From Planctomycetaceae bacterium (lineage in GTDB: Bacteria > Planctomycetota > Planctomycetia > Pirellulales > Pirellulaceae), in NCBI GenBank assembly GCA_005798335.1, contig SYJV01000063.1, positions 1 through 35,179 of the forward strand: DNA of 35,179 nucleotides, read 5' to 3'. A model generated the notes under the pieces. It made no database searches, was not told the DNA's origin, and worked only from the letters and a program-made list of their open reading frames with translations. Of the stretch, positions 7,831-34,956 are shown in pieces. The translations under genes and the position numbers were made by a program. The number at the start of each line of letters is the position of its first letter. The stretch's first letter is position 1.

Positions 7831-9837
7831 TTAATCATCGAAATTAGCTTCCGCCGGCTCGTCGCGAATGATCGCTGGTCGCGCGGTGACCGGCCCAGGC
7901 TGTTGGCCTGAATCCACTCGCAATATTTCTCCGTCCAGCAACTGACATATTCTCTCGATCAATGGATGTTCTGCAACCTGCCGCAATTTCTTGGATCGAG
8001 CCGCCGAGCTGGTCGAGGCCGGTTCGGTGGGCTTTGGGGCTTCGCCAGCTTGCACACGAAAACTAATTTGCACAGGCCGTTCCAAAAGCGAACCAACGGC
8101 CTCGAGCAACGCCTGCTTGCGCTGAGGAACCTCGCAATACTCCACGGATTTTTGGCTGCCGGGAGGAAATACGATACACCATTTGTCGCTTCCTTGCGGT
8201 TCTACCGACTGGGCAAGCGAAGCGAAATTAGCAAGCATGCCTTCGATCTGTGTAGTTGCTTTTCTCCATTGCTCGAGGGCTGCTGCACTGCCGCTCGACT
8301 CAACCGGCTGTGGTACAGACACTTGGTCCATGCGAACAGCTTCGGTTGGTCGTGCCACCTTCGGCTCGGCGCGCTGGCGCGTGGCAGGTTCGTCTGCCGA
8401 TCCATACGCCATTGAGTCCGCTGGTATTTGTTGCGTGGCTCGCGAGCGTGCTTCGGTCGAACCGGTGTTGGGTACAGCGGTCTTGGAAAGAGGCTCACTG
8501 GAGGAAAGCGGTAGTTGATTGGTTGTAGTTCTCTTTTCGAGAACAGATGGAACACTCGTGGACGTGATTAGTGGCGTCGCTGCCACCGAAGTCTTAGCAG
8601 TTTGTGTCACCTGCTCAGTGTTTTTTTTTTCGACCATCGCTGTTGGCGATGCCTTGCTTGGCTCCGCACTTCCGCGACCGACTGCCTCGATCAATGCGCC
8701 CACATTTGCTAGATGTTTCAACTGGCAAATCTGCACCAAAGCCAATTCCAGCAGCGTTCGAGGTTGAATGCTATAGCGCATTCGCACGAGTGCTTCATCG
8801 AGAATCTGAATCGATGCAAGTATCGTTTGCAGTCCCCAATCTGCAGTCAGCGACTGTAAGTTGACGTAACCTGCAGGATTTGCCAGTTTCAGCAATTCTG
8901 GACCACCACCGACCGACACCGTCATCAAATCGCGGAGATAACTGAGCAATTGTTCAGCCAGTTGTCCCGCATCTGCTCCCTGTTGCATGGCCGATTCAAT
9001 CTGCTGCATCGCGCCGAGAGCCGAATAGGATTTCAAAGCGTCTACCAGTTCGAGCAATCGGCCTTCGTCGGCTGTGCCAAGCAGGGCATGGACCTGGTCG
9101 ACAGAGATCTCGCCGGTCGAAAAGCTAAATATTTGCTCAAGTAACGACTGGCTATCACGCATCGAGCCAGCCGCGCGGCGAGCAAGCAAAGCGAGAGCAT
9201 CGGTCTGCGCTCGATAACCTTCGCGTTCACAGATTTCTTGCAAACGATTTTGGATCGCCTCCATGCCAACCGGTGCGAAATCAAATCGCTGGCATCGGGA
9301 CAGCACTGTGATCGGAATTTTTTCGGCATCGGTCGTACAAAAAATAAACTTTACATGCTCGGGTGGCTCCTCCAATGTCTTCAAGAGCGCATTGAAAGCT
9401 TGCGTGGTCAGCATGTGGACTTCATCGATGATGTATATTTTGTATCGAGATCGACTTGGCCGAACATTAATATTCGCGCGCAGTTGGCGAATTTCTTCGA
9501 TGCCTCGATTGCTGGCGCCATCGATTTCGATGACATCCATATCTTCGCCGGCATCGATTGCTTGACAAATATCTGACGAATTGTCGGGAGATGGAGTCGA
9601 ACCCTCGGGAGCATTGAGCGCCTTGGCGAAAATTCTCGCGGTCGATGTCTTACCAACTCCGCGAGCTCCGGTGAACAGATAGGCATGGCCAACTCTCCCC
9701 GAGACAATTGCATTGCCCAGCGCGTGAGAGATGTTGTCCTGCCCGACCAACTCGCCGAAAGACTTTGGACGATAACGTCGCGCAACGACCGTGTAATTTC
9801 CGCTCAATTGTTCGCTAGGACGTTGCGCGTCAGCCAT
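7831..9837 (-). CDS. dnaX: DNA polymerase III subunit tau/gamma (clamp loader ATPase)
   Basis: The AAA+ motor of the clamp loader, which opens the sliding clamp and, as tau, ties polymerase to helicase. Seen: the N-terminal ARRYRPKSFGELVGQDN motif, Walker A GARGVGKT (residues 57-64), Walker B IIDEVH (138-141), the LLKTLEEPPEHVKF segment, the SRC motif (180-182), and domain III up to about residue 375. A long disordered tail rich in Ser, Thr, Pro and Ala follows. The zinc-module cysteines are mostly gone: ALNA replaces ALNC and only C91 of the usual PCGxCxxC remains. Ten A residues at codons 403-406 may cause slippage to a short gamma product (separate entry). I chose ATG 9837, which is preceded by GAGG at good spacing; an upstream ATG at 9864 is possible. 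Confidence 0.97.
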   Translation of the reverse strand: MADAQRPSEQLSGNYTVVARRYRPKSFGELVGQDNISHALGNAIVSGRVGHAYLFTGARGVGKTSTARIFAKALNAPEGSTPSPDNSSDICQAIDAGEDMDVIEIDGASNRGIEEIRQLRANINVRPSRSRYKIYIIDEVHMLTTQAFNALLKTLEEPPEHVKFIFCTTDAEKIPITVLSRCQRFDFAPVGMEAIQNRLQEICEREGYRAQTDALALLARRAAGSMRDSQSLLEQIFSFSTGEISVDQVHALLGTADEGRLLELVDALKSYSALGAMQQIESAMQQGADAGQLAEQLLSYLRDLMTVSVGGGPELLKLANPAGYVNLQSLTADWGLQTILASIQILDEALVRMRYSIQPRTLLELALVQICQLKHLANVGALIEAVGRGSAEPSKASPTAMVEKKNTEQVTQTAKTSVAATPLITSTSVPSVLEKRTTTNQLPLSSSEPLSKTAVPNTGSTEARSRATQQIPADSMAYGSADEPATRQRAEPKVARPTEAVRMDQVSVPQPVESSGSAAALEQWRKATTQIEGMLANFASLAQSVEPQGSDKWCIVFPPGSQKSVEYCEVPQRKQALLEAVGSLLERPVQISFRVQAGEAPKPTEPASTSSAARSKKLRQVAEHPLIERICQLLDGEILRVDSGQQPGPVTARPAIIRDEPAEANFDD
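8621..8630 (-). promoter_or_regulatory. A10 slippage site inside dnaX, predicted to yield gamma
   Basis: On the coding strand the run is G-A10-C, read as GAA AAA AAA AAC (E403-K-K-N406). One extra A in the mRNA, or a -1 ribosomal slip, gives AAA CAC TGA, a stop two codons on. Loss of one A gives ACA CTG AGC AGG TGA, also a quick stop. Every one-base slip therefore makes a protein of about 407-409 residues that keeps domains I-III and loses the tau tail. A weak stem (AGCAG at 8596-8600 and CTGCT at 8611-8615 on the plus strand) lies 5 nt downstream of the run. Slippage on A-runs in dnaX is established for Thermus thermophilus (transcriptional) and E. coli (ribosomal); its use here is inference. 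Confidence 0.75.
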
Positions 9838-9882
9838 AGGGATGCGCCTCGATAACCGCCTCATCGACCAGTTAGAATCGTA

Positions 9883-10110: not shown

Positions 10111-11628
10111 TTAGCGTCGTCCTCTTGGCCGTCCACGGGGGCCGTGGTCACGTCCGCCGTCATATCGACGATGATTTTCCATGTTGTTTGCGATAATCGA
10201 CTCTAACGAATCGGCCCAAGTTGGAATTCGACGATGTTTATTCCCGCCCTCGTCGAGCTCATTTTCATTTTCCACGTCAAAGACTTCGTCAATTTCGTCG
10301 CTCGCATCATCGGCCCGCGATCGATCGTATTTGGGGATTTCGCGGTCGACACTCGCTCGAACTCGGTCAGAAGACGAACTGCGTTCTGCTGCTGTTCGCT
10401 CTCGGGTTTCTCGCTCAGGGCGATCTCTATCGGTACGGTCCATTTCTGTGCGATCGCGACCTCGGGCTAGAGTGCGATCACGGTCTGAGGAATGACGTCG
10501 ATGGTCTGAGTCGCCACCACGAGCAACCTCTCGCGTCGCGTCGCGTCGCGTCGTGTCGCGATCACTGTCGGTGCTGCGATCCGCAATTTTCTCTTTGCGT
10601 GCACCAGCTTCAGTCTCGCCGTTGGGCACAGTTCCTTCAGCTTCGTCGTTGCGTCGGCTGCCTCTACCGCGACGCCGTCGTCGATTGGATCTGCGTTCTG
10701 CTTCAAATTCAGAGTTTTCGGAATCGAGCGCCTCTGAATCGCGAGAAGTTATTTTGGGCTCACCCCAAGGATCGAGTATTTCGACTGAGTCGTCCGCCGC
10801 GGGTTCATCGTCCCAGCCTACTTTGCCAATTACGGCTTGCTCGTCGGGTTCGCGAGATGTGGACTCAGTCGAGTCTCTGTCTCTTCCTCGGCCCCCGCGT
10901 CGTCGTCGTCGTCGTCGTCGTCCCCGCCCAGAGGAATCTTCATCGCTAGTTGGCGCGGACGAAGACGTTTCTTTTGAAACATCGTCATCGGAGTCATCAA
11001 TATCCCAGCTAACGTCGTCCACAATTCTGAGTGAACTTTCTTCGCGCCAGTCTTTTCCCGGTTGGCGAGGAGCATCTTGGAATAGAGCGTCGAGCGCCGA
11101 ATTCGCTTGAGAATCCGATGCGTCGTCTATTGCTGGTGGCGAGTCCAACCTAGGTCGCGGACGCTCCGATTCAACTCGCTCCGAACGCGACGAGGCTCGC
11201 GGTGCAGGCTCGCGGACAACTCGCGCGGGTGCCTCTTCCACGGTCGTCGGCTCAGGCTTCTTGGCGACTTCCTCCGAAGCCGATGAGAGCCCAAACATCT
11301 TTGTTAGCGAGTCCCATGACGAGCGACGTTTCACAGGCTCCGATTTGGGTTCGTGTTTCGCCTCAGGCTGGCTGGCAATTTTTTCTTCTTTCTGTTCCTT
11401 AACTGCAGGTGGGCTGGCATCAACAGCAATTCGTCCGCGCGCTGGAAGATCCCTTTCGACAGCCTTCTCGGCGATGGGTGTCGCCAGGGGCTCTTTGTCC
11501 TTACGAGTTGTCTCGATGTACTCGGAACTGGCTGGCCCGAGAGCTGGCGGTTCGACCGGAAGGCGTCGCCGCGCATCCATTCCCGGCGCACCCAATAAAT
11601 CGGCTATCGATTTCCAATGATCTGACAT
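10111..11628 (-). CDS. Large disordered protein rich in Arg, Asp, Glu and Ser
   Basis: About 505 residues, mostly low-complexity and mixed-charge. The N-terminus has a short ordered motif (MSDHWKSIADLLGAP). A middle segment is acidic (DDVSWDIDDSDDDVS). A polyarginine and RGG block follows at about residues 235-250 (eight Arg in a row, then GGRGRDRD), then long runs of RD/RE pairs. The C-terminus returns to an ordered-looking motif (RRIPTWADSLESIIANNMEN) and ends in RGG-like GRPRGRR. The composition suggests an RNA-binding, condensate-forming protein, similar to the tails of RNase E or DEAD-box helicases but with no catalytic domain. No known function. I chose ATG 11628 because MSDHWKSI begins the ordered motif. 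It lies directly upstream of ffs and may share its transcript. Confidence 0.8.
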   Translation of the reverse strand: MSDHWKSIADLLGAPGMDARRRLPVEPPALGPASSEYIETTRKDKEPLATPIAEKAVERDLPARGRIAVDASPPAVKEQKEEKIASQPEAKHEPKSEPVKRRSSWDSLTKMFGLSSASEEVAKKPEPTTVEEAPARVVREPAPRASSRSERVESERPRPRLDSPPAIDDASDSQANSALDALFQDAPRQPGKDWREESSLRIVDDVSWDIDDSDDDVSKETSSSAPTSDEDSSGRGRRRRRRRRGGRGRDRDSTESTSREPDEQAVIGKVGWDDEPAADDSVEILDPWGEPKITSRDSEALDSENSEFEAERRSNRRRRRGRGSRRNDEAEGTVPNGETEAGARKEKIADRSTDSDRDTTRRDATREVARGGDSDHRRHSSDRDRTLARGRDRTEMDRTDRDRPERETRERTAAERSSSSDRVRASVDREIPKYDRSRADDASDEIDEVFDVENENELDEGGNKHRRIPTWADSLESIIANNMENHRRYDGGRDHGPRGRPRGRR

Positions 11629-11819
11629 ATTCTGTTTACTGCCAAAACTGTCCAAAAAACAAAGGTAGGCTGATAACAGCAAATGCTGATTCAGCTAAGA
11701 CCGGAGGCTACCGCCTTCCGCCTGACAATAGCGCTGCGCTGTCCTGGTAGTATAGCCATTTGGGATAATTGCGAATAGGCGAATCAATTTACGCAAAGTT
11801 TTTTGCAAAGTAAGGAAAC

Positions 11820-12860
11820 ATGAAGGCACTGGTTAAGAGCAAATCGGAACCTGGATTGTGGCTGGAGGACGTTTGCGAGCCGACCATCGGCATCAACGAT
11901 TGTATGATTCGAGTTGATCGCACGGGGATTTGTGGGACGGATATGCACATTTATAAGTGGGACGCGTGGGCTCGTAAGACGATTCCCATTCCCATGGCGG
12001 TTGGGCACGAATTTGTCGGCGAAATTGTGGCCGTCGGAGCTAACGTTACCGATTTTCACCCCGGCGATGTCGTTAGCGGCGAAGGGCATGTCGTCTGCGG
12101 TCGCTGTCGAAACTGTTTGGCCGGTCGTCGTCATCTATGCGCCCATACGAAAGGAATTGGTGTCAATCGTCCGGGAGCCTTTGCAGAGTACCTGTCCTTG
12201 CCCATGACTAATGTGTGGCATCATCATCCCGATATCGATCGCGATGTGGCGTCGATCTTCGATCCGTTTGGCAACGCGGTTCATACGGCCCTGTCGTTTC
12301 CGGTACTTGGCGAAGATGTATTGATTACCGGAGCTGGGCCAATTGGTTGCATGGCAGCCGCCGTGGTGCGCCATGCAGGTGCCCGCTTTATCGTGGTTAC
12401 CGACATTAATCCGTGGCGTTTGGAGCTGGCCAACAAGATGGGGGCGACGAGGTGTGTCGACGTCCGTCACGAGAGCTTGGCTGATGTACAACGTGAGCTG
12501 GGGATGCTGGAGGGATTCGACATCGGGTTGGAAATGTCTGGAAACCTCGATGCCTTTCGGGGAATGCTGGAAAATATGGCCCATGGCGGCAAGATTGCGA
12601 TGCTGGGTATCCCTACCGAACCCATTGCGATCGATTGGAACACTGTCGTTTTTAATATGCTGACCATCAAAGGCATCTACGGCCGCGAGATGTACGAGAC
12701 GTGGTACAAGATGACGGTTATGATCCAAGGCGGCCTCGACATTGCGCCAGTGATTACTCACCGGTATCATTACACCGACTTTCAGGCTGCGTTTTCGGCG
12801 ATGAGCACCGGACAGACTGGGAAAGCGATTCTCTATTGGAGTTCGCATCCACCTGAGTAG
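11820..12860 (+). CDS. tdh: L-threonine 3-dehydrogenase
   Basis: A zinc-dependent medium-chain dehydrogenase oxidising L-threonine to 2-amino-3-ketobutyrate with NAD+. Residue numbering matches E. coli Tdh: catalytic C38, T40, H43, H63 and E64, and structural zinc ligands C93, C96, C99 and C107 ([14 protein letters not shown]). The strongly conserved [14 protein letters not shown] and the nucleotide-binding [14 protein letters not shown] are present. It has 346 residues, close to the usual 341. The start has a good AAGGA five bases upstream. The usual partner kbl (2-amino-3-ketobutyrate CoA ligase) is not adjacent, so the product must be handled by a distant gene or by spontaneous decarboxylation. 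The gene is divergent from the disordered-protein gene. Confidence 0.96.
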
Positions 12861-12984
12861 CCGTCTGCCCCGCACCGCTGAAACCAAGCCAACTCTCGTT
12901 ATTGCACAAGCAGGATGGTAGCGATACGATGAGCCCAGTTTTCATCGGCCAATCTATGAAGAAATGATTAAGGGTACGATTCTT

Positions 12985-13533
12985 ATGGGCCAACGTATTG
13001 TGATGCGGACTGGCGAAGCCCTGGTCGAAGGGAGTCCAGAATACATTTGTGCGGAACCTGAAATTATCATCGGTGAACTCGATGGACCAGTCGGCCAAGC
13101 GATGGCGATCCTGGTCGGCGATCAGGTCAAAGGGCATTCGCGCGTATTCGCGATCCTGAACAGTGACTATCAAGTCAAACCGGCGACATTGATGGTCAGC
13201 AAAGTCACCGTGAGCGATGCGCGATATACCAATATCCTCATGGGAAGTGTTCAAGCTGGAATCGCCAATGGGGTTCTGGATGCGGTTCGAGCAGGCTATA
13301 TTCCCAAAGAGAAAGCCAATGAACTGGGAATCATTTACTCGATCTGGCTTGACCCCAGCGTATTGAAGGTCGAAAAAGTGGACCATCAAGCACTGTTTCA
13401 AGTCAATCGCGACGCGACGGTGAAAGTCATCAAGAAAGCGATGGCTGGCGAGCCGACGATCGATTGGTTGCTCGAACACCAAAATAGCATCGAGCACTTT
13501 TTCCATAAACTCGGCGTTGATGGGCAGCTTTGA
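12985..13533 (+). CDS. Formaldehyde-activating enzyme (Fae) homologue, probable non-canonical paralogue
   Basis: Canonical Fae joins formaldehyde to tetrahydromethanopterin in the C1 pathway found in methylotrophs and also planctomycetes. Family features here are TGEALVEG at the N-terminus, KPATLMVSKVTVSDARYTNILMG in the centre, then QAGIANGVLDAVRAGYIPKEKAN, and a C-terminal block with KKAMAGEPT. About 182 residues, slightly longer than usual. The residue aligned with the catalytic His of Fae (AHIDLIIG) is Glu24 (AEPEIIIG), so the reaction may differ. Known planctomycete Fae-like paralogues have unclear roles. ATG 12985 gives the usual short lead before GEALV and has AAGGG upstream; ATG 12964 would add seven residues. 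It is followed by cysC and murQ. Confidence 0.85.
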   Translation: MGQRIVMRTGEALVEGSPEYICAEPEIIIGELDGPVGQAMAILVGDQVKGHSRVFAILNSDYQVKPATLMVSKVTVSDARYTNILMGSVQAGIANGVLDAVRAGYIPKEKANELGIIYSIWLDPSVLKVEKVDHQALFQVNRDATVKVIKKAMAGEPTIDWLLEHQNSIEHFFHKLGVDGQL

Positions 13534-13566
13534 TTGACTCGTAATAAGGAGCCGAGCCACTACACT

Positions 13567-14250
13567 ATGAGCCAACAAGACCCACGAGTCGTGTGGCACG
13601 CGCATGCTGTCACCGGCGCGGAGCGTCGGCGATTGATGGGCCATCGTGGCTGTGTGATTTGGTTCACGGGCTTGAGCGGCTCCGGAAAAAGTACTCTCGC
13701 CAATGCAGTTGATGCAAAACTGGTCGCACGAGGAATTCATACGTTTCTGCTCGACGGCGATAATATTCGCCATGGCCTGTGCGCTGGACCGAATTTGCTG
13801 ACCCAGGAGCATGGCGAGGATTTTGCGCAACGGTTTGGATTGGGCTTTGGTCCCTTGGACCGCGAAGAAAATATTCGACGCATCGGAGCCGTAGCGCAGC
13901 TCTTCGCGGCGGCAGGTTTGGTTACGTTGACTGCGTTCGTCAGCCCCTATCGACGCGACCGCCAACGCGTGCGCCGCTGGGTTGAAAGCCAAGGACAATC
14001 GGGCGATTTCGTCGAAGTTTATGTCGATGCTCCCTTGGAGATCTGCGAACAACGCGACCCCAAGGGGCTCTACAAACTGGCACGCGAAGGCAAGATCACC
14101 AACTTCACCGGTATTAGCGATCCGTACGAACCACCGACAAACCCCGAAATTACCGTACCAGCGGCGCATCGCGCGCCCGATGATTTGGCCGATCAAGTTA
14201 TCGAGTATTTGTTTGCTACCGGGCCGTTTTCCAAAGAGCAGTTGCGGTGA
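13567..14250 (+). CDS. cysC: Adenylyl-sulfate kinase (APS kinase)
   Basis: Phosphorylates adenosine 5'-phosphosulfate to PAPS, the donor for sulfotransferases or for sulfate reduction. Walker A GLSGSGKS is at residues 35-42, followed by [36 protein letters not shown] and [20 protein letters not shown], all strongly conserved in CysC. Between GLC (residue 72) and [13 protein letters not shown] there is an insertion of about 17 residues compared with E. coli. ATG 13567 is preserved by an AAGGAG 15 nt upstream; a TTG at 13534 is possible. The stop overlaps the GTG of murQ by four bases (GTGA), which suggests translational coupling. No cysD or cysN is nearby. Confidence 0.95.
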
Positions 14251-15176
14251 ACGATTCTGCAAGCCTGTCACGATTGACAACCGAAGGAAGGAACGCCAAC
14301 TCTTCGGCAATCGATTCGCTCGGTACGTTGGAAATTGTCCGGGTGATCAATCAAGAAGATTGTTTGGTCGCTGATGCAGTAGGCCGCGCGGAGAATAGTA
14401 TAGCGCAAGCGGTCGACGCTGTGATTCATTCTTTTCAAGCCGGTGGGCGACTGATTTACTTGGGCGCCGGTACCTCAGGACGTTTGGGTGTACTCGATGC
14501 GAGCGAATGTCCGCCGACTTTCAATTCTCCGCCCGACCTAGTTGTTGGACTGATCGCCGGTGGTGACGGAGCCTTGCGCAGGGCGATCGAAGGCGCCGAA
14601 GATAATCCCACCGCGGCTGAAGACGACTTGCGACAACTGGCTTTATCCTCGCGCGATTGCGTACTTGGTATCGCGACCAGCGGTCGCACGCCCTACGTCA
14701 TCGGTGCGATGGAGTTCGCGCGGGGCATTGGTGCAACGACTATTGGACTGGCATGCAACCGTGATTCGGATATGGTCCCACATTGTGACGTTATGATTGA
14801 AGCGATTGTGGGGCCAGAGATCATCAGTGGCTCGACACGCATGAAAGCGGGAACTGCGACCAAGCTGATACTCAATACGATCACTACTGCCGCGATGGTA
14901 CGTATTGGCAAGACCTTTGGAAATCTAATGGTCGACGTGCGAGCGACCAATTCCAAATTGCAAGCGCGCAGCATTCGACTGGTGCGTATGTTGACGGGCT
15001 TGGATGACGCCGCGGCAATAGAGCTGCTGGTTCGAGCGGACCAGCGAGTAAAGACTGCGGTGGTGATGTACCATCGTCAAACCGACTGTTCAACAGCCAA
15101 GCAACTGCTCGAAGCAGCCGGAGGTCAGCTTAGAAAAATCGTCGGAAACATTTCCATCATCGACCCTGTCTCTTAG
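14247..15176 (+). CDS. murQ: N-acetylmuramic acid 6-phosphate etherase
   Basis: Cleaves the lactyl ether of MurNAc-6-phosphate to give GlcNAc-6-phosphate and lactate, a step in reusing peptidoglycan sugars. The 309-residue protein has the SIS sugar-phosphate fold with [21 protein letters not shown], the [15 protein letters not shown] region, and the highly conserved [22 protein letters not shown]. The start is GTG, sharing GTGA with the cysC stop. Its presence fits peptidoglycan turnover in planctomycetes. It is convergent with the pilT-like gene, whose stop lies only 18 nt away. Confidence 0.96.
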
Positions 15177-25284: not shown

Positions 25285-25845
25285 ATGTCAGTCGAGCAAA
25301 TTGCCACTCACTTTTGTGAGAACTGGGCCGTCTGGTTCTTGTCGATTACGTTGATTGTGGCTGCAGTAATAGACGGATTGTATCTCAAGGTTCCGAATAA
25401 GATCACTTATCCACTGATAGTCGCGGGTTGGATCTATTGCGGCTGGGTCGGCGGACTGAGCGGCTTTGGAATGAGTGTGCTTGCGACATTCGTAGGGATG
25501 GCAATGCTGTTCTTCCTGCATCTGATCGGTGGCATGGGAGCCGGCGATGTTAAGTTGCTGGCGGGAATCGCAGCCTGGGTAGGCATTGAACATACTTGGT
25601 GGATCTTTGTCACAACGGCCGTAGTGGGCGCGATCATGGCAATGGGCCAAATCGCTTGGTCTGGAAACTGGATCAAGCACTTGGTTCAAGCCAAGTTCAT
25701 CATGAACGAAATTGTCACCGTGCGTAATGCTGACAAGCTTTACGATCTCGCCGCAGAACGGAAACCACGAATGCTACTACTGCCTTACGGAATTCCCATG
25801 ACGATATCCGCGATTGGTTACTTTGCGTGTATGGGTATGCTGTAA
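25285..25845 (+). CDS. cpaA: Tad prepilin peptidase (A24 aspartic protease), CpaA/TadV-like
   Basis: A 186-residue integral membrane aspartyl peptidase that cuts the Flp leader. The two catalytic aspartates of the family are visible: D30 (VAAVIDGLYLKVPN) and D88 in the GAGD motif (GGMGAGDVKLL). Five or six membrane helices can be traced. It lacks the N-terminal methylase domain of PilD, as usual for CpaA/TadV. The start is preceded by GGGGGAAACGAAA. Between the second Asp region and the C-terminal helix is an extended cytoplasmic loop (KHLVQAKFIMNEIVTVRNADKLYDL). Confidence 0.94.
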   Translation: MSVEQIATHFCENWAVWFLSITLIVAAVIDGLYLKVPNKITYPLIVAGWIYCGWVGGLSGFGMSVLATFVGMAMLFFLHLIGGMGAGDVKLLAGIAAWVGIEHTWWIFVTTAVVGAIMAMGQIAWSGNWIKHLVQAKFIMNEIVTVRNADKLYDLAAERKPRMLLLPYGIPMTISAIGYFACMGML

Positions 25846-26190
25846 CGGTTGTGCCGATGAAATCCATTTTAGTGATCGAACCAGCGGCTACCCGTCGAAA
25901 ACTTACATAACGGAACGACCTGTACGCAAGATAGGAAGAATGGCGAAGCGAAGTCGTGAATGTGGATTCTGTGGAGTAGTTCAAATACATCGGGCTTGTC
26001 AGCGAATCTGGAATTCCTGAATTCCAATTTGCTGAAACGCCAATGAACTACTCGATAGTCAACCACAGCGAGAATGTGGATTTCGTCAGCCTGAGAAACT
26101 GGAGTCACAGGCATTCCAAATGTTGCGAGATGTTGGGTCGATAGGATGCGACTCTCCGCATTAGCAGGCTAGCGGCAAGGCAAACTGGCG
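25846..26190. other. Spacer between cpaA and cpaB
   Basis: 345 nt without a supported gene. An open frame around 25940-26020 would encode 26 residues after AGGAAG, but nothing else supports it. The palindrome GGAATTCCTGAATTCC (26010-26025) could be a protein-binding site. A promoter for cpaB may lie here; none is clear. Confidence 0.5.
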
Positions 26191-27291
26191 ATGCGAGCAA
26201 AATCAGTAATTCTGTTGGTAATTGCCCTAGGATGTGGCATGGTCGCATCCGTAGGGATTAGCCAAGTAGTCTTGGACAAGAAGGATAAAGGTGTCGAGCA
26301 AACGATCGACATCTTCGTCGCGGTTAAAGATCTCGACACGCTACAGAAGCTGTCTGCCGAGACCGTCAAGCTGGAAAAATGGCCCAAAGATCGGCTGCCA
26401 GATGGCGCGATTTTGAAATTCGACGATCTTGAAAACAAATACACCAATCAGCGGTTGTATGCTGGCGAGCCCATTCTAGCTCGCAAGCTGATGGATTCGG
26501 CGGACGACGTATCTACCAAGATCCCTAAAGGCTATCGCGTATTTGACCTATCGGTGACCGATCGCAATGGTGGCGTGGGGTACATCAAACCCGGTGACCA
26601 CGTCGATGTCGTCGGAACATTCAATGTACGCGGCACCTCCGAAGGTCGCACTGTAATGCGCAATGTCAAGGTCTTTGGCATCAATGGCAACACGGTTCGC
26701 GAGTCGGACGGCGGCAAAAACGCCAAAGCCTCGACGGTGCAGTTGCTAGTAAAACAAAGCCAGCTCGAAGCCTTGACTTTGGCGAATACCATGGGCGAGC
26801 TGCGATTGAGCCTTAGGCCGCCAGGAGATTCGCAAGACGAGTCAACCGATAACGGCACGGACTTTATGAATTGGCTGAATAAAGCCGAACAGGCAGCCAA
26901 GCCCGCTCCAGCGATCGCAGAAGCTATCCCAGATTTGTTTAAGTTTAACACCGCCGTGTCGAAAGTTGAAGATGACAAGAATCAACTGCTGATTATCACT
27001 CCTAGTGGCGTGACAACTTATAAATGGTCTAAGGACAATGAGATGCCGCGTAAGGAAGAGGAAACATCCTCAACCGGTGGCAATAAAGCACTCAATGGCA
27101 GCGGACAGTTTTCAGGCACCGGTGGATATGCCCCCAATTACCCTGGTGGAGCAGCACCTACGAGTGGCCAGAAAACCACGCCTACGACCGGTAAGAGTAA
27201 GAGTCCCTCGAAAACGACCTTGATCGACGATGAGGCCGCCACCGAGGAAGGGGCCGACACCGACAAGAAACGACCGACCCCAAGCCAATGA
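26191..27291 (+). CDS. cpaB: Tad pilus assembly protein CpaB (RcpC), periplasmic
   Basis: A 366-residue protein with one N-terminal membrane helix (residues about 5-25). Next comes a SAF-like domain (EQTIDIFVAVKDLDTLQKLSAE and LYAGEPILARKLM), then the conserved KGYRVFDLSVTDRNGGVGYIKPGDHVDVVGTF block of CpaB/RcpC. The last 90 residues are low-complexity, rich in Gly, Pro, Thr and Lys. CpaB is thought to work in the periplasm with the CpaC secretin. Start ATG follows AAGGC about 12 bases upstream. Confidence 0.94.
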   Translation: MRAKSVILLVIALGCGMVASVGISQVVLDKKDKGVEQTIDIFVAVKDLDTLQKLSAETVKLEKWPKDRLPDGAILKFDDLENKYTNQRLYAGEPILARKLMDSADDVSTKIPKGYRVFDLSVTDRNGGVGYIKPGDHVDVVGTFNVRGTSEGRTVMRNVKVFGINGNTVRESDGGKNAKASTVQLLVKQSQLEALTLANTMGELRLSLRPPGDSQDESTDNGTDFMNWLNKAEQAAKPAPAIAEAIPDLFKFNTAVSKVEDDKNQLLIITPSGVTTYKWSKDNEMPRKEEETSSTGGNKALNGSGQFSGTGGYAPNYPGGAAPTSGQKTTPTTGKSKSPSKTTLIDDEAATEEGADTDKKRPTPSQ

Positions 27292-27432
27292 ACTTTGAAT
27301 TGAACTTTGCTCGAACCTCATTGCGAGCTTCGAGATTGTACGACACGATACGATTGGACCGCAGGTGAGACGAAAACGAATCATGGATGATTTTCCGTTC
27401 GTCTCACTGAACAAGAACAAGGATGTCAGCGG

Positions 27433-29049
27433 ATGTCTGTCACACGCAGATCCAAGAATCGGTTACTAGCCCTGGCGCTCGCGGGCGCCAGCGCGCTGTT
27501 GAGTGGTACCACACTTGCGCAGAGCGGCGCAGTCTCCCAGTGGTCACTGCCTGATACTCCGGTCAAATTGGTCTCTACCGATCGGCGACAGTCAATCCAA
27601 ATGATTGTCAATTCCAGTCGTGAAGTGACAGCGGAAAAGCCGTTCAAGCGAGTGCGCATTCAGAATCCAAATATGGTTTCGGCGATTCCTTTGGAAGGGG
27701 GCAATCGTTTGCAGATTTCCGCGATCGCAACCGGCGTGACCCAAGTCGATTTGGTGGAAGCGGACGATTCGGTACACACGGTCGAAGTGATGGTGCTGGG
27801 CGATGTACGCGAACTCGAGGCGATCCTGCGAACGCAGTTTCCTTCAGCACATCTGCAAGTAATGCCCGTCCAACAAGGTTGCATTATCTCCGGTGTGGTG
27901 ACACGTGACGCCGACGTTGAACAAGTGATCACGATTGCAGAACTCTTTTTTCCGACGGTAGTGAACAAAGTCCAAGTGGCTGGTGTGCACACAGTTCAAC
28001 TTGAGACTCAAATCATGGAAGTCTCGCGCACAAAATTGCGCGAATTGGGAATCGACTGGGCACTCAGTAACGGCAACGACTTCGTTTCGCAAACGGTATC
28101 TGGGTTGATCGCCAATACAACCACGGCCTCTGGCTTGACCACCGCCGGTAACGAGACGTTCAAGATCGGAGTCGTGCAGGGCAGCACTCAATTCTTTAAA
28201 GTGCTTCGTGCCTTGAACCAAAATAACCTAATCAAAGTTCTCGCCAATCCCACATTGACTGCCGTGGATGGACGCCCCGCCAGCTTTAATTCCGGCGGTG
28301 AGTTTCCTGTGATTGTGCCGTCTGGTCTTGGACAAGTAGCAGTACAATTCCGCGAATTCGGAACGCGTGTGGACTTCGTCGCGAAGGTTCGCGGCGAAGG
28401 TAAAATCTGGTTGGAAGTCCGCCCTTACGTCAGCGAAATCGACCCGACTAGGTCGGTGACGATCAGCGGAATTAGCGTGCCAGGGTTGCGCAGCCGGTTC
28501 TTGGAAACTGGAGTTGAAATGCAAGCCGGACAAACTCTTGTGTTAGGCGGGTTGCTCCAGTCGCGAACCGAAGTGGTCAGCACTGGGCTTCCGTGGTTCA
28601 AGGACCAACCATACATCGGAGCATTGTTTCGACGTAACTCCGAAGTCCAGAACGAAGTCGAATTGCTGATCACGGTTACTCCCAACTTCGCTGGTCCACT
28701 GGATCCGCACGAATTACCGGGAGGTGGTCCAGGCTTAAATACGCAAAGCCCCACCGATCGCGAATTCTACTGGCGCGGCTACATGGAGTCGCCACGAGTT
28801 GACAACAATTGCCAGACTTGTGGTCCAGGCTTTGCGCAGGGAGCCACAGATGGTCGTGTGATGATGACTCAGTCGGATATCCCCATGCCAGCCGGAAATT
28901 TTGGTTCGTCGTCGATGAGTCCCGCGCCGGTCACTACCAGCGTCGGTCCCAACGCACCGCGATTTGCTGAACAATACAATTATCCCAATGGTACTGGTCC
29001 CGTCGGTGGCACCGCGCAATTGCCTGGAGGTAGTGCAGCCATTCGGTAA
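27433..29049 (+). CDS. cpaC: Tad pilus secretin CpaC (RcpA)
   Basis: Outer-membrane secretin through which the Flp pilus passes. Signal peptide (about 1-30, ending TLAQS), an N-terminal pilus-assembly/BON-like region (about 40-200), then the secretin domain (about 205-415) with VLANPTLTAVDGRPASFNSGGE, GTRVDFVAKV, LRSRFLETGVEMQAGQTLVLGGLL and the signature GLPWFKDQPYIGALFRR. The C-terminal 115 residues are Gly-, Pro- and Asn-rich and likely disordered, with one CQTC pair. 538 residues. It follows cpaB after 141 nt. It is not lipidated: no lipobox is present. Confidence 0.95.
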   Translation: MSVTRRSKNRLLALALAGASALLSGTTLAQSGAVSQWSLPDTPVKLVSTDRRQSIQMIVNSSREVTAEKPFKRVRIQNPNMVSAIPLEGGNRLQISAIATGVTQVDLVEADDSVHTVEVMVLGDVRELEAILRTQFPSAHLQVMPVQQGCIISGVVTRDADVEQVITIAELFFPTVVNKVQVAGVHTVQLETQIMEVSRTKLRELGIDWALSNGNDFVSQTVSGLIANTTTASGLTTAGNETFKIGVVQGSTQFFKVLRALNQNNLIKVLANPTLTAVDGRPASFNSGGEFPVIVPSGLGQVAVQFREFGTRVDFVAKVRGEGKIWLEVRPYVSEIDPTRSVTISGISVPGLRSRFLETGVEMQAGQTLVLGGLLQSRTEVVSTGLPWFKDQPYIGALFRRNSEVQNEVELLITVTPNFAGPLDPHELPGGGPGLNTQSPTDREFYWRGYMESPRVDNNCQTCGPGFAQGATDGRVMMTQSDIPMPAGNFGSSSMSPAPVTTSVGPNAPRFAEQYNYPNGTGPVGGTAQLPGGSAAIR

Positions 29050-29145
29050 TCCCCGATAACGATTTGTAAACGGTAATACCCAACGGTGTTGTACCTTGAC
29101 CGCCAAGCTGCAATATCAAGCCATGGAATAGACAGTTAGCCAAGT

Positions 29146-30378
29146 ATGAGTAACGTTTTACGAATTGCTATTGTCGATCCTCGCGACGACACACGTGAAA
29201 AACTCAAAGCCATGCTCCTGAGCTTGGATATCGTGTGGCTGGAAGCAGAGTGTTCTCGGTACGAATTCTTCCCGGACGTCATCGCCCAAGCGAATCCTGA
29301 TGTCGGAGTGGTTTGCTTGGATTCGGACTCCGATAAATCGTTGCAACTGCTCGAACGGATGCGCGGCGAATCGCCCGATGTCGCCATGCTGGTGGTCAGC
29401 AGTTCGAACGATGGTCAGTTAATTCTGCGAGCCATGCGCGCCGGTGCCAAGGAATTTATCACGCTGCCGGCCAGTCTCGAGGACTTGCTGAGTGCGTTGC
29501 AGCGCATCGCAGACATCAAATTCGGTGGCTCGGAAGGCAAGAACCGCAGCTCGCGCATCATCGCGGTTGCGGGCGCATCCGGCGGTGTCGGCTGCACCAG
29601 CATCGCGGTGAACCTGGGTTGTATCCTGGCCAAGAACCCAAGCAATACCGTTGCCTTGGTCGACTTGGATCTGGCCATTGGCGATGCAGACGTATTTCTG
29701 GATGCGATACCCGATTACAGTTTGGTGGACGTCACGCAGAACGTCGCTCGTTTGGATTTTCAATTACTCAAACGTTCACTGACGAAACACAGTTCGGGAC
29801 TCTATCTCCTGCCTCGACCTGTACAGTTGCAAGATGTCAAGCTGATTAATCCCGATTCGCTGCGACGAGTCTTTGGGTTGCTGAAGGCTACTTTTACGCA
29901 CATCGTGATCGACATCTCCAAAGCTTTCACGGAAAGCGACCTCACGGCGCTCGAATTGGCCAACGATGTCATTATCGTCGCGCAGCTCAACTTGCCCTGC
30001 CTGAGGAACTTGGTTCGCCTGATGATGTCTTTCGACGAAATCGAGGGCCTGAAGGACTGCGTCAAAGTCGTCATCAACCGCGTTGGACTTGAGAGCGGCC
30101 AAATCAAACTCAAGAAAGCCCGAGAGACAATCGGTCGCGATATCTACTTTCAGATTCCCAACGATTACCGGACGATGGTGGAAGTTCGCAACAACGGAGT
30201 TCCACTCATTGAACAAGCGCCCAAGGCACCAATCACAGTCGCCATGCAACAGCTCTCCGATATGCTGCTTGGCAAGACCAGCGCCGAAGCCGATGCGGAA
30301 TCCGAAGCAGCCTCTTCATCCGGCAGCTCCTGGCGCGGTTTCTGGCCCGGCAAAGCCGTCAAACCCAAAACCAAATGA
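29146..30378 (+). CDS. cpaE: Tad pilus localisation ATPase CpaE/TadZ-like
   Basis: A receiver-like N-terminal domain (about residues 5-120, with DPRDDTREKL and MRAGAKEFITLPAS) precedes a MinD/ParA-type domain. The nucleotide loop reads GASGGVGCTS (143-152), so both lysines of the deviant Walker A are lost (S145 and C150); atypical loops are known in TadZ. ALVDLDLAIGDADVFL gives the switch I and Walker B area. The protein should mark the pole or site where Tad pili assemble. The C-terminal 30 residues are Ser-rich. It is the last Tad gene here; cpaF, tadB and tadC are absent. Confidence 0.93.
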   Translation: MSNVLRIAIVDPRDDTREKLKAMLLSLDIVWLEAECSRYEFFPDVIAQANPDVGVVCLDSDSDKSLQLLERMRGESPDVAMLVVSSSNDGQLILRAMRAGAKEFITLPASLEDLLSALQRIADIKFGGSEGKNRSSRIIAVAGASGGVGCTSIAVNLGCILAKNPSNTVALVDLDLAIGDADVFLDAIPDYSLVDVTQNVARLDFQLLKRSLTKHSSGLYLLPRPVQLQDVKLINPDSLRRVFGLLKATFTHIVIDISKAFTESDLTALELANDVIIVAQLNLPCLRNLVRLMMSFDEIEGLKDCVKVVINRVGLESGQIKLKKARETIGRDIYFQIPNDYRTMVEVRNNGVPLIEQAPKAPITVAMQQLSDMLLGKTSAEADAESEAASSSGSSWRGFWPGKAVKPKTK

Positions 30379-33915: not shown

Positions 33916-34005
33916 ACCAGGGACCGATGGCGTTCGCTGGCCAAAGGTGCGACCTGCACCGGTGGCAAAGTTGACACAATGCCATAGTTGGGATCGGTGA
34001 GAAAT

Positions 34006-34956
34006 ATGCCACTGGGAATCAGACCAACTGTCGACTTTGTATTCAAGAAGATATTTGGGTCGCCACAGAACGCGCAAGCGCTGATTGGATTGCTCAATGC
34101 AATCCTTGACCTGGAACGTCCGATCGAGTCGGTGGAGGTCCTCAACCCGTTCAATTACCAGGAGTTTGCCGAAAACAAACTGATAGTATTAGATGTTCGT
34201 TGTCGCGATTCGGCTGGGCGGTCGTTGAATGTAGAAATGCAAGTTTCGGCCTACGCCGGCTTGCTCGAACGCTTGGTTTATTATGCTTGCAGTATGTACG
34301 TAGATCAGCTCGAATCCGGACAGAACTATGCCCTCGCTGCGCCGGCCATCTCCATCTGCTTGCTTAGCCGCCGAATATTTCGAGACTCTGATCAAGCACA
34401 TCATCGCTTTCAAATGCTCGACGCGTGCAGTGGTCGAACGCTACGCAACGCCATCGAGGTACACACAGTCGAGTTGACAAAGTATAATTTGAGTGCGGCA
34501 ACGATAGCGACGCGTCCGAAATTGGAGCAATGGACCTTTCTGCTGTTGCACGCGCACGAGTACGATGCGGATCAGTTGACAGCGATTTTACCAGGAATCG
34601 AATTCGAACAAGCTATCAAGACGATTGCCATCATTTCAGCCAAGGCGGAAGATCGACAGATGTACGACCAACGAGAAAAAGCACAGCGCGATTACAATTG
34701 GGCCATTTCTGGTGCACGTGAAGAAGGTCGAGCAGAAGGTCGTGATGAAGGTCATAAAGAAGGTCATAAAGAAGGTCATAAAGAAGGTCGTGATGAAGGT
34801 CGCGCGGAAGGCAAGTTGGCTGGCAAGATTCAGATGTTACAAGAGTTGCTACGAGATCGAGTGTCGACGGACATAGAACTCTTGAACAAGCGTCCAGAAA
34901 CGCTGGCCGCAGAACTGGCGACGTTGCAACAGCGCCTGCGAGGCCGCGATAATTAA
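34006..34956 (+). CDS. Rpn/PD-(D/E)XK nuclease family putative transposase-like protein
   Basis: About 316 residues of the recombination-promoting nuclease (Rpn) family. The N-terminus has PTVDFVFKKIFGSPQNAQALIGLLNAIL and the nuclease core LIVLDVRCRDSAGRSLNVEMQVSA, where Asp and the ExQ pair form the PD-(D/E)XK site. LERLVYYACSMYVDQLESG is typical. After residue 230 the protein carries tetrapeptide repeats (EGRA, EGRD, EGHK x3, EGRD, EGRA) and a helical end. Such genes are scattered in many genomes and act as DNases or mobile-element-like agents. ATG 34006 matches the family start; TTG 33988 is less likely. No inverted repeats mark it as an intact mobile element. Confidence 0.88.
   Translation: MPLGIRPTVDFVFKKIFGSPQNAQALIGLLNAILDLERPIESVEVLNPFNYQEFAENKLIVLDVRCRDSAGRSLNVEMQVSAYAGLLERLVYYACSMYVDQLESGQNYALAAPAISICLLSRRIFRDSDQAHHRFQMLDACSGRTLRNAIEVHTVELTKYNLSAATIATRPKLEQWTFLLLHAHEYDADQLTAILPGIEFEQAIKTIAIISAKAEDRQMYDQREKAQRDYNWAISGAREEGRAEGRDEGHKEGHKEGHKEGRDEGRAEGKLAGKIQMLQELLRDRVSTDIELLNKRPETLAAELATLQQRLRGRDN
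34723..34806 (+). repeat. 12-nt tandem repeats inside the Rpn gene
   Basis: Seven 12-nt units beginning GAAGGT; the middle three are exact copies of GAAGGTCATAAA (34747-34782) and the rest differ at the last six bases. They encode EGxx tetrapeptides. Exact copies suggest recent expansion by replication slippage, and the repeat number may vary among strains. The length change keeps the reading frame. Confidence 0.9.

Follow-up and report, generated by a model that had tools for sequence, protein, structure and literature searches.

The stretch of DNA analysed here (contig SYJV01000063.1 of assembly GCA_005798335.1, from a Planctomycetaceae bacterium; 35,179 nucleotides in all, hereafter the window) carries on its minus strand the gene dnaX, which in its template reading frame encodes the full-length clamp-loader subunit tau, and within dnaX lies a run of exactly ten adenines (A10). 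The N-terminal part of DnaX matches the TIGR02397 dnaX_nterm model with 425.9 bits (cut-off 250) and, together with matches to PF13177, PF22608 and PF12169, all above cut-off, this establishes the presence of the AAA+ module (residues 33–190), the lid (195–241) and domain III (244–383). An alternative upstream ATG at 9864 would lengthen the protein to 677 residues. The order dnaX-ybaB-recR is the same as in Escherichia coli (Table 1). The original prediction, made from the letters of the window, had described a G-A10-C directly behind domains I–III with stops in both shifted frames that end the product at about residues 407–409. Re-reading the sequence returns the same run, shortly behind the Pfam domain III, and products of 407 and 409 residues; the loss or addition of two adenines would give 406 and 410 residues, respectively. 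We read A10, from its sequence context, as a programmed transcriptional slippage site through which one dnaX gene would supply two clamp-loader subunits, tau and the shorter gamma, and we put the probability of this reading at roughly 0.75.

Table 1 Features of the dnaX locus in the window (positions count from the first letter of the window).
Feature	Coordinates	Strand	Description
dnaX (full-length tau in template frame)	9837-7831	minus	668 amino acids, ATG at 9837
A10 slippage run (candidate)	8621-8630	minus (T10 on plus strand)	GAA AAA AAA AAC, codons 403-406 of 668
TGA, -1 frame (one extra A)	8617-8615	minus	6 nucleotides past run; predicted 407-residue gamma (...EKKKH)
TGA, +1 frame (one A fewer)	8609-8607	minus	14 nucleotides past run; predicted 409-residue gamma (...KKTLSR)
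5-bp stem AGCAG/CTGCT	8615-8611 with 8600-8596	minus	in predicted fold; probably incidental
ybaB/ebfC (next gene after dnaX, start uncertain)	7803-7462	minus	PF02575, TIGR00103
recR (third gene of row)	7426-6827	minus	TIGR00615, Pfam

Runs of this length are scarce in the genome. A10 is the only homopolymer of eight or more in the window, as the original prediction had noticed for runs of ten; two T7 runs come next in length. On both strands of the whole assembly (8,462,909 bases in 558 contigs) A10/T10 occurs once, in dnaX, while exact A9 and A8 runs number 17 and 207. The sole A10 of the congener G009 also sits in dnaX, as does one of the two A10 runs in the single-contig genome of the congener G001. 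Long A runs are avoided in the coding regions of many bacteria, a large proportion of them from nine nucleotides up (PMC1088944). The same genome has 17 A9/T9 runs, and five of them (L290, L294, L297, L283 and L292) fall in the first 30 codons of frames longer than 300 amino acids; these frames are mechanical calls, and such early runs may have a bearing on phase variation or slippage.

The run is conserved in place throughout the genus and in two families of the class. Among 15 genomes of the genus, 10 display a readable linker (the sequence of G003 stops short of the run, and no usable linker was obtained from G002, G004, G008 and G013), and all 10 hold the run at the same position, as A10 in nine and as A9 in one; it is nowhere broken by AAG codons, the interruption in close relatives that the original prediction had named as counting against it. 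At the level of the family (f1), 90 genomes were read from a search of 170. Besides the 10 congeners, they comprise the 20 next best hits and 60 relatives picked by hand from among the matches listed; hand-picking aimed at the cover of genera and at short open frames, so that this is a chosen set deliberately enriched for short frames. One locus (L083, in G056) is cut before the site, leaving 89 determinable genomes, of which 85 carry A9 (27), A10 (57) or A11 (1) and four carry no run. Counted by genus, 42 of 46 determinable genera carry the run. Within the f1 linker the longest stretch of adenines measures 9, 10 or 11 or, in the four remaining genomes, at most 5, and never 6 to 8. In the 79 f1 genes with an A9 or longer run and an open zero frame, it lies 334–394 codons past the Walker A motif. 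In f3, another family of the class, A9–A10 is present in 13 of 14 readable genomes (16 fetched) and in 11 of 12 genera, the longest linker run being 9 in nine genomes, 10 in four and 5 in one, again never 6 to 8. The run is missing from four f1 linkers (L063, L068, L100 and L108), from one of f3 (L126) and from both f2 genomes, which belong to the same order as f1 (L122 and L123); relatives of this kind may make no gamma, or may make it by proteolysis. The family f1 is very probably Pirellulaceae, since the DnaX N-terminus of Aporhodopirellula is up to 95% identical to that of the f1 genus g39; the dnaX of Aporhodopirellula aestuarii (Pirellulaceae) carries A10 and that of Gemmata sp. IIL30 carries A9, and no A-run is present in two loci of Candidatus Anammoximicrobium (L203 and L204). 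Among loci that by title lie outside the Planctomycetota, A9 or A10 is found in 4 of 62 readable ones (76 being readable of the best 80 loci listed), with the run in a comparable place in two, L212 (Ignavibacteria) and L277 (Bacteroidetes). In one congener, G011, dnaX is present three times in nearly identical form, each copy on a contig of its own (L007, L017 and L028) and each with A10, which may reflect duplication or mixed strains.

The stops that follow the run are placed close in both shifted frames. A near stop was defined as one ending within 20 nucleotides of the run, and was scored in the 79 f1 genes and in 13 genes of f3. In f1, near stops occur in the -1 frame of 92% of genes, in the +1 frame of 77% and in both frames of 71%. 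Control sites in the same genes give 24%, 23% and 5%, respectively, with none of 5000 resamplings as extreme, and a like excess is seen when one gene per genus is retained (n = 42). Permutation of the downstream codons gives 24% (-1), 15% (+1) and 3% (both) and synonymous recoding gives 35%, 26% and 9%; neither procedure came up to the observed values in 400 simulations. The median distance to the stop is 8 nucleotides in the -1 frame and 12 nucleotides in the +1 frame. In f3 both frames are closed nearby in 54% of genes, compared with 8% of control sites (0 of 5000 resamplings as extreme). The closure of both frames suits slippage in either direction, whereas -1 ribosomal frameshifting needs just one stop.

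The protein around the run is free to vary. Across the 79 f1 genes mean pairwise identity is 14% over the 10 residues before the run and 10% over the 10 residues after it, in contrast to 69% over the 120 amino acids from Walker A. All three codon phases occur, with 60 genes reading the run in phase 1, 16 in phase 2 and three in phase 0, and it encodes peptides as different as EKKN, QKKT, EKKK, QKKN and AKKK, among others. Outside the run, AAA accounts for 49% of lysine codons. Judged by these comparisons, the dnaX run is selected as nucleotides and not as peptide.

In a number of relatives the frames are exchanged. Four f1 genes have a closed zero frame, in G100 (A10), G111 (A9), G118 (A9) and G021 (A11), and so have six of the seven species, from seven genera, that were read in family f34 (G227, G264, G303, G305, G247 and G261, all A10), the seventh (G297) being open. 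In all ten the zero-frame stop lies 4–22 nucleotides past the run, and a shifted frame of 192–280 amino acids matches the tau C-terminus of open-frame relatives. Thus, because the zero frame is closed and the tau C-terminus is intact in a shifted frame, a shift of frame is needed in these species to make tau, and gamma is the plain product. In nine of the ten, one additional A leads into the tau frame; G021 needs the opposite direction, one A fewer. Fragmentary assembly is an unlikely source of the closed frames of G303 and G305, because their dnaX contigs measure 7.4 and 3.8 Mb; G303 consists of one contig. The congeners G111 (A9, closed) and G110 (A10) have tau C-termini that are 89% identical.

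These observations suggest the following sequence of events. The RNA:DNA hybrid held by RNA polymerase is 8–10 bp long (PMC6260861), and over the T10 template the enzyme would lose register because the hybrid would then consist wholly of rA:dT and could realign without mismatch. The resulting dnaX messages would carry 9, 10, 11 or more adenines. Those with 10 (or 10 ± 3n) would be translated into tau of 668 residues, while the others would meet a stop 6 or 14 nucleotides past the run and yield gamma of about 406–410 residues, which would keep domains I–III (the AAA+ motor, the lid and domain III) and lack the C-terminal tau region. That slippage occurs, at transcription and at some rate, and that gamma has a role are what we infer from the arrangement, rarity and conservation of the run and from the placing of the stops. 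Ribosomal shifting on the same run may contribute as well.

The original prediction, programmed slippage making gamma, is supported by the conservation in two families and by the near stops in both frames, but it had left open which machinery slips. The evidence favours RNA polymerase over the alternative in which ribosomes make gamma by programmed -1 frameshifting on a heptamer within the run, as in E. coli, an explanation that we consider unlikely but that draws on several of the data. A number of findings weigh on its side or otherwise against transcriptional slippage. A10 holds the -1 heptamers A_AAA_AAA and A_AAA_AAC by default. The -1 stop of f1 is the nearer and the more constant of the two; in f3, +1-frame stops taken alone are weakly enriched (54% compared with 31%, 296 of 5000 resamplings being as extreme), and the maximum of the codon-permutation control for these stops equals the observed 54%. 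In nine of the ten closed-frame species, the tau frame would be reached equally well by a -1 shift of the ribosome. Sequences downstream of the run fold somewhat more strongly in f1 than in controls, with a mean z-score of -0.73 compared with -0.20 and with z below -2 in 17% compared with 4%, and the folding z-score also missed the known hairpin of E. coli dnaX (z 0.06), so that lack of a stem is weak evidence. Taking f1 and f3 together, 92 genes are open, and in 15 of them the codon holding the last A is AAG, as in E. coli. Finally, some planctomycetes of other families have a closed zero frame behind A7 or GGGAAAA, in many cases with a strong hairpin downstream, as described below.

Against the ribosomal frameshifting explanation stands, in the first place, the length of the run, since A7 would suffice for a -1 shift and yet A6–A8 is never the longest run in f1 or f3. 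The genes of f1 also have the +1-frame stop close to the run, and this stop would be superfluous for a -1 shift. Of the stimulators of frameshifting, Shine-Dalgarno-like motifs 5–20 nucleotides upstream are not enriched (10% in f1 compared with 11% in controls, and 0% compared with 13% in f3), and none precedes the run of the window. The A_AAA_AAG site is not the rule among relatives and is absent from the window, where the last codon is AAC. The segment downstream of the window's run folds with z -1.31 over 75 nucleotides, 22 of 200 shuffles folding at least as well, and at about -2.2 over 50 nucleotides; within the genus folding is not in excess, the 10 congeners with the run having a mean z of 0.05, and f3 reaches -0.74 compared with -0.72 in controls. 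The weak AGCAG/CTGCT stem of the original prediction does form in the predicted fold, but its role finds no support in this congener mean.

A further translational explanation, in which ribosomes slide both ways on the poly(A)/poly-lysine stretch with no defined heptamer, would equally select both-frame stops and long runs; the sequence evidence assembled here is the same for it and for RNA polymerase slippage. Sliding is usually described for longer A tracts; we regard it here as quite improbable. Phase variation at the DNA level, with replication slippage switching tau on and off in the population, would fit the difference of one A between the congeners G111 and G110. However, dnaX is essential in the bacteria studied, and a reversible switch is not expected to give the f34 pattern, in which the frame is closed in six of seven genera with diverged flanks; this explanation is accordingly very improbable. 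Equally remote is a chance or structural origin (a tolerant linker or an A-tract) or an assembly artefact: the poorly conserved linker and the run-less relatives would suit it, but the stops in both frames are non-random and a chance run is made very unlikely by the uniqueness of A10 in the assembly and its conservation in relatives, which include single-contig genomes such as G001. Other signals that might hold such a run in place were sought and rejected. No promoter- or terminator-like pattern lies in 8300–9000. For a terminator role on the other strand, hairpins abutting the T-run are not in excess (18 of 42 compared with 100 of 166 controls), though the mean folding energy is -6.0 compared with -4.9, and no known RNA element matches 8200–9000 in Rfam up to an E value of 1.

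A search across the phylum covered 147 genomes, from which 80 loci were hand-picked; seven of these were not recognised (L136, L138, L146, L154, L165, L191 and L197). The 57 loci outside f1–f3 comprise eight with A9 or longer and an open frame, six with A9 or longer and a closed frame, seven classed as heptamers with a closed frame (one of them, G291, doubtful), three short genes without a slip site, 32 without any slip site and one unclassed. Taken by family, most of those read outside the class have no A-run, and a few show short heptamers in its stead. The short genes (L175, L181 and L190, in G200, G196 and G195) have DnaX frames of 380–424 amino acids and no recognised slip site; tau may be absent from these genomes or encoded elsewhere. 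GGGAAAA or A7 heptamers stand at L157, L158 and L164 (in G243, G221 and G295, with GGGAAAA) and at L159, L163, L187 and L272; A7 is found in G274, G258 and G280. In these six genomes the zero-frame stop lies 6 nucleotides past the site (18 in G280), and the shifted frame matches tau C-termini in G274, G258, G280 and G295, with no match in G243 and G221 (family f4). The z-scores of downstream folding at seven loci with heptamers, L272 included, are -3.5, -2.3, -1.8, -1.8, -3.7, +0.7 and -2.7, compared with -1.0 to +0.5 at the six closed-frame A10 sites of f34. This contrast is suggestive, and in the GGGAAAA/A7 genes the sequences point to -1 ribosomal frameshifting instead of slippage as the probable mechanism. 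On a FastTree phylogeny of 169 N-terminal domains, the presence or absence of a slip site changes at least 11 times, the state A-run, heptamer or none at least 15 times, and the open or closed frame among genes with A9 or longer at least seven times; these are minima in which gain and loss are not told apart, and the second count includes family f24, where the heptamer label of G291 is doubtful and was left uncounted as the run lies farther down and the shifted frames are all short.

We lean, by a modest degree, towards the view that the making of gamma and tau in the Planctomycetota is old and mechanistically fluid, with A9–A11 runs, swapped frames and heptamers with -1 frameshifting at the same place. 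The A9–A11 run would have persisted in two families of one class and would turn up again, outside that class, in families here and there. Certain lineages would have swapped the product that needs the slip, the zero frame being closed and tau made by slippage, and in others -1 ribosomal frameshifting at an A7 or GGGAAAA heptamer, often with a hairpin downstream, would have taken the place of RNA polymerase slippage. The 32 loci without a slip site, the larger part of the 57, lower the confidence in this reading and also count against the slippage reading of the run.

The closest known system is the dnaX of Thermus thermophilus, where transcriptional slippage takes place on A9 (PMC1088944, PMC5009743). 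As in Thermus, the planctomycete gene has an A-run of at least nine, tau in the template frame and near stops in both other frames that would give gamma; it differs in belonging to another phylum and in that slippage in the window is predicted from sequence. In E. coli, gamma arises by programmed -1 ribosomal frameshifting on A_AAA_AAG, with an upstream Shine-Dalgarno motif and a downstream stem-loop (PMC5009743). The window shares with E. coli the gene, a comparable gamma length (about 407 compared with 431 residues) and a -1 stop ending 6 nucleotides past the run. In contrast, E. coli, which served as control, has A6G, a Shine-Dalgarno-like GGAG 14 nucleotides upstream and a distant +1-frame stop (38 nucleotides), while the window has A10C, no such motif and a +1-frame stop at 14 nucleotides. 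Antonov et al. described, with GeneTack, dnaX genes with A10 in two open reading frames in nine species, a new dnaX type with tau made by recoding, for which transcriptional slippage was proposed (PMC3711429). The six f34 and four f1 closed-frame species resemble these in that tau needs recoding, unlike the window, whose zero frame is open and encodes tau; Planctomycetota may be among the nine. No description of dnaX slippage in Planctomycetota was found in the titles and abstracts listed by searches aimed at the phylum, within a partial coverage of the literature. What seems new here is how widely the run is conserved, the statistical argument that the stops of the two shifted frames provide, and the fact that a single phylum switches between slip runs and heptamers and between frames that are open and frames that are closed.

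Elsewhere in the window, positions 25285–30378 of the plus strand hold in a row a prepilin peptidase, CpaB/RcpC, a secretin and a MinD/ParA-like gene that includes a receiver domain, a row which looks like a Tad/Flp pilus cluster. A PD-(D/E)XK family transposase lies at 33988–34956 of the plus strand, close to the contig end. Two long open frames of the minus strand, 10111–11682 and 12754–14310, have no Pfam match at 1e-6, and the second overlaps the end of an alcohol dehydrogenase frame (11820–12860).

What the short form of DnaX, gamma, does in the cell has been a matter of controversy (PMC5009743). A slippage site kept over dozens of planctomycete genera while the flanking protein is free to vary argues that both forms are selected there. 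If the reading is true, programmed transcriptional slippage in a replication gene would be extended from Thermus to a large family. Automatic gene calling may wrongly record the dnaX of closed-frame species as truncated. The relatives offer ready pairs for comparison, open with closed frame and A-run with heptamer. If the fluid history outlined above is also true, the phylum would be a natural experiment in which the gamma/tau pair is selected where it is present, and not the device that produces the pair.

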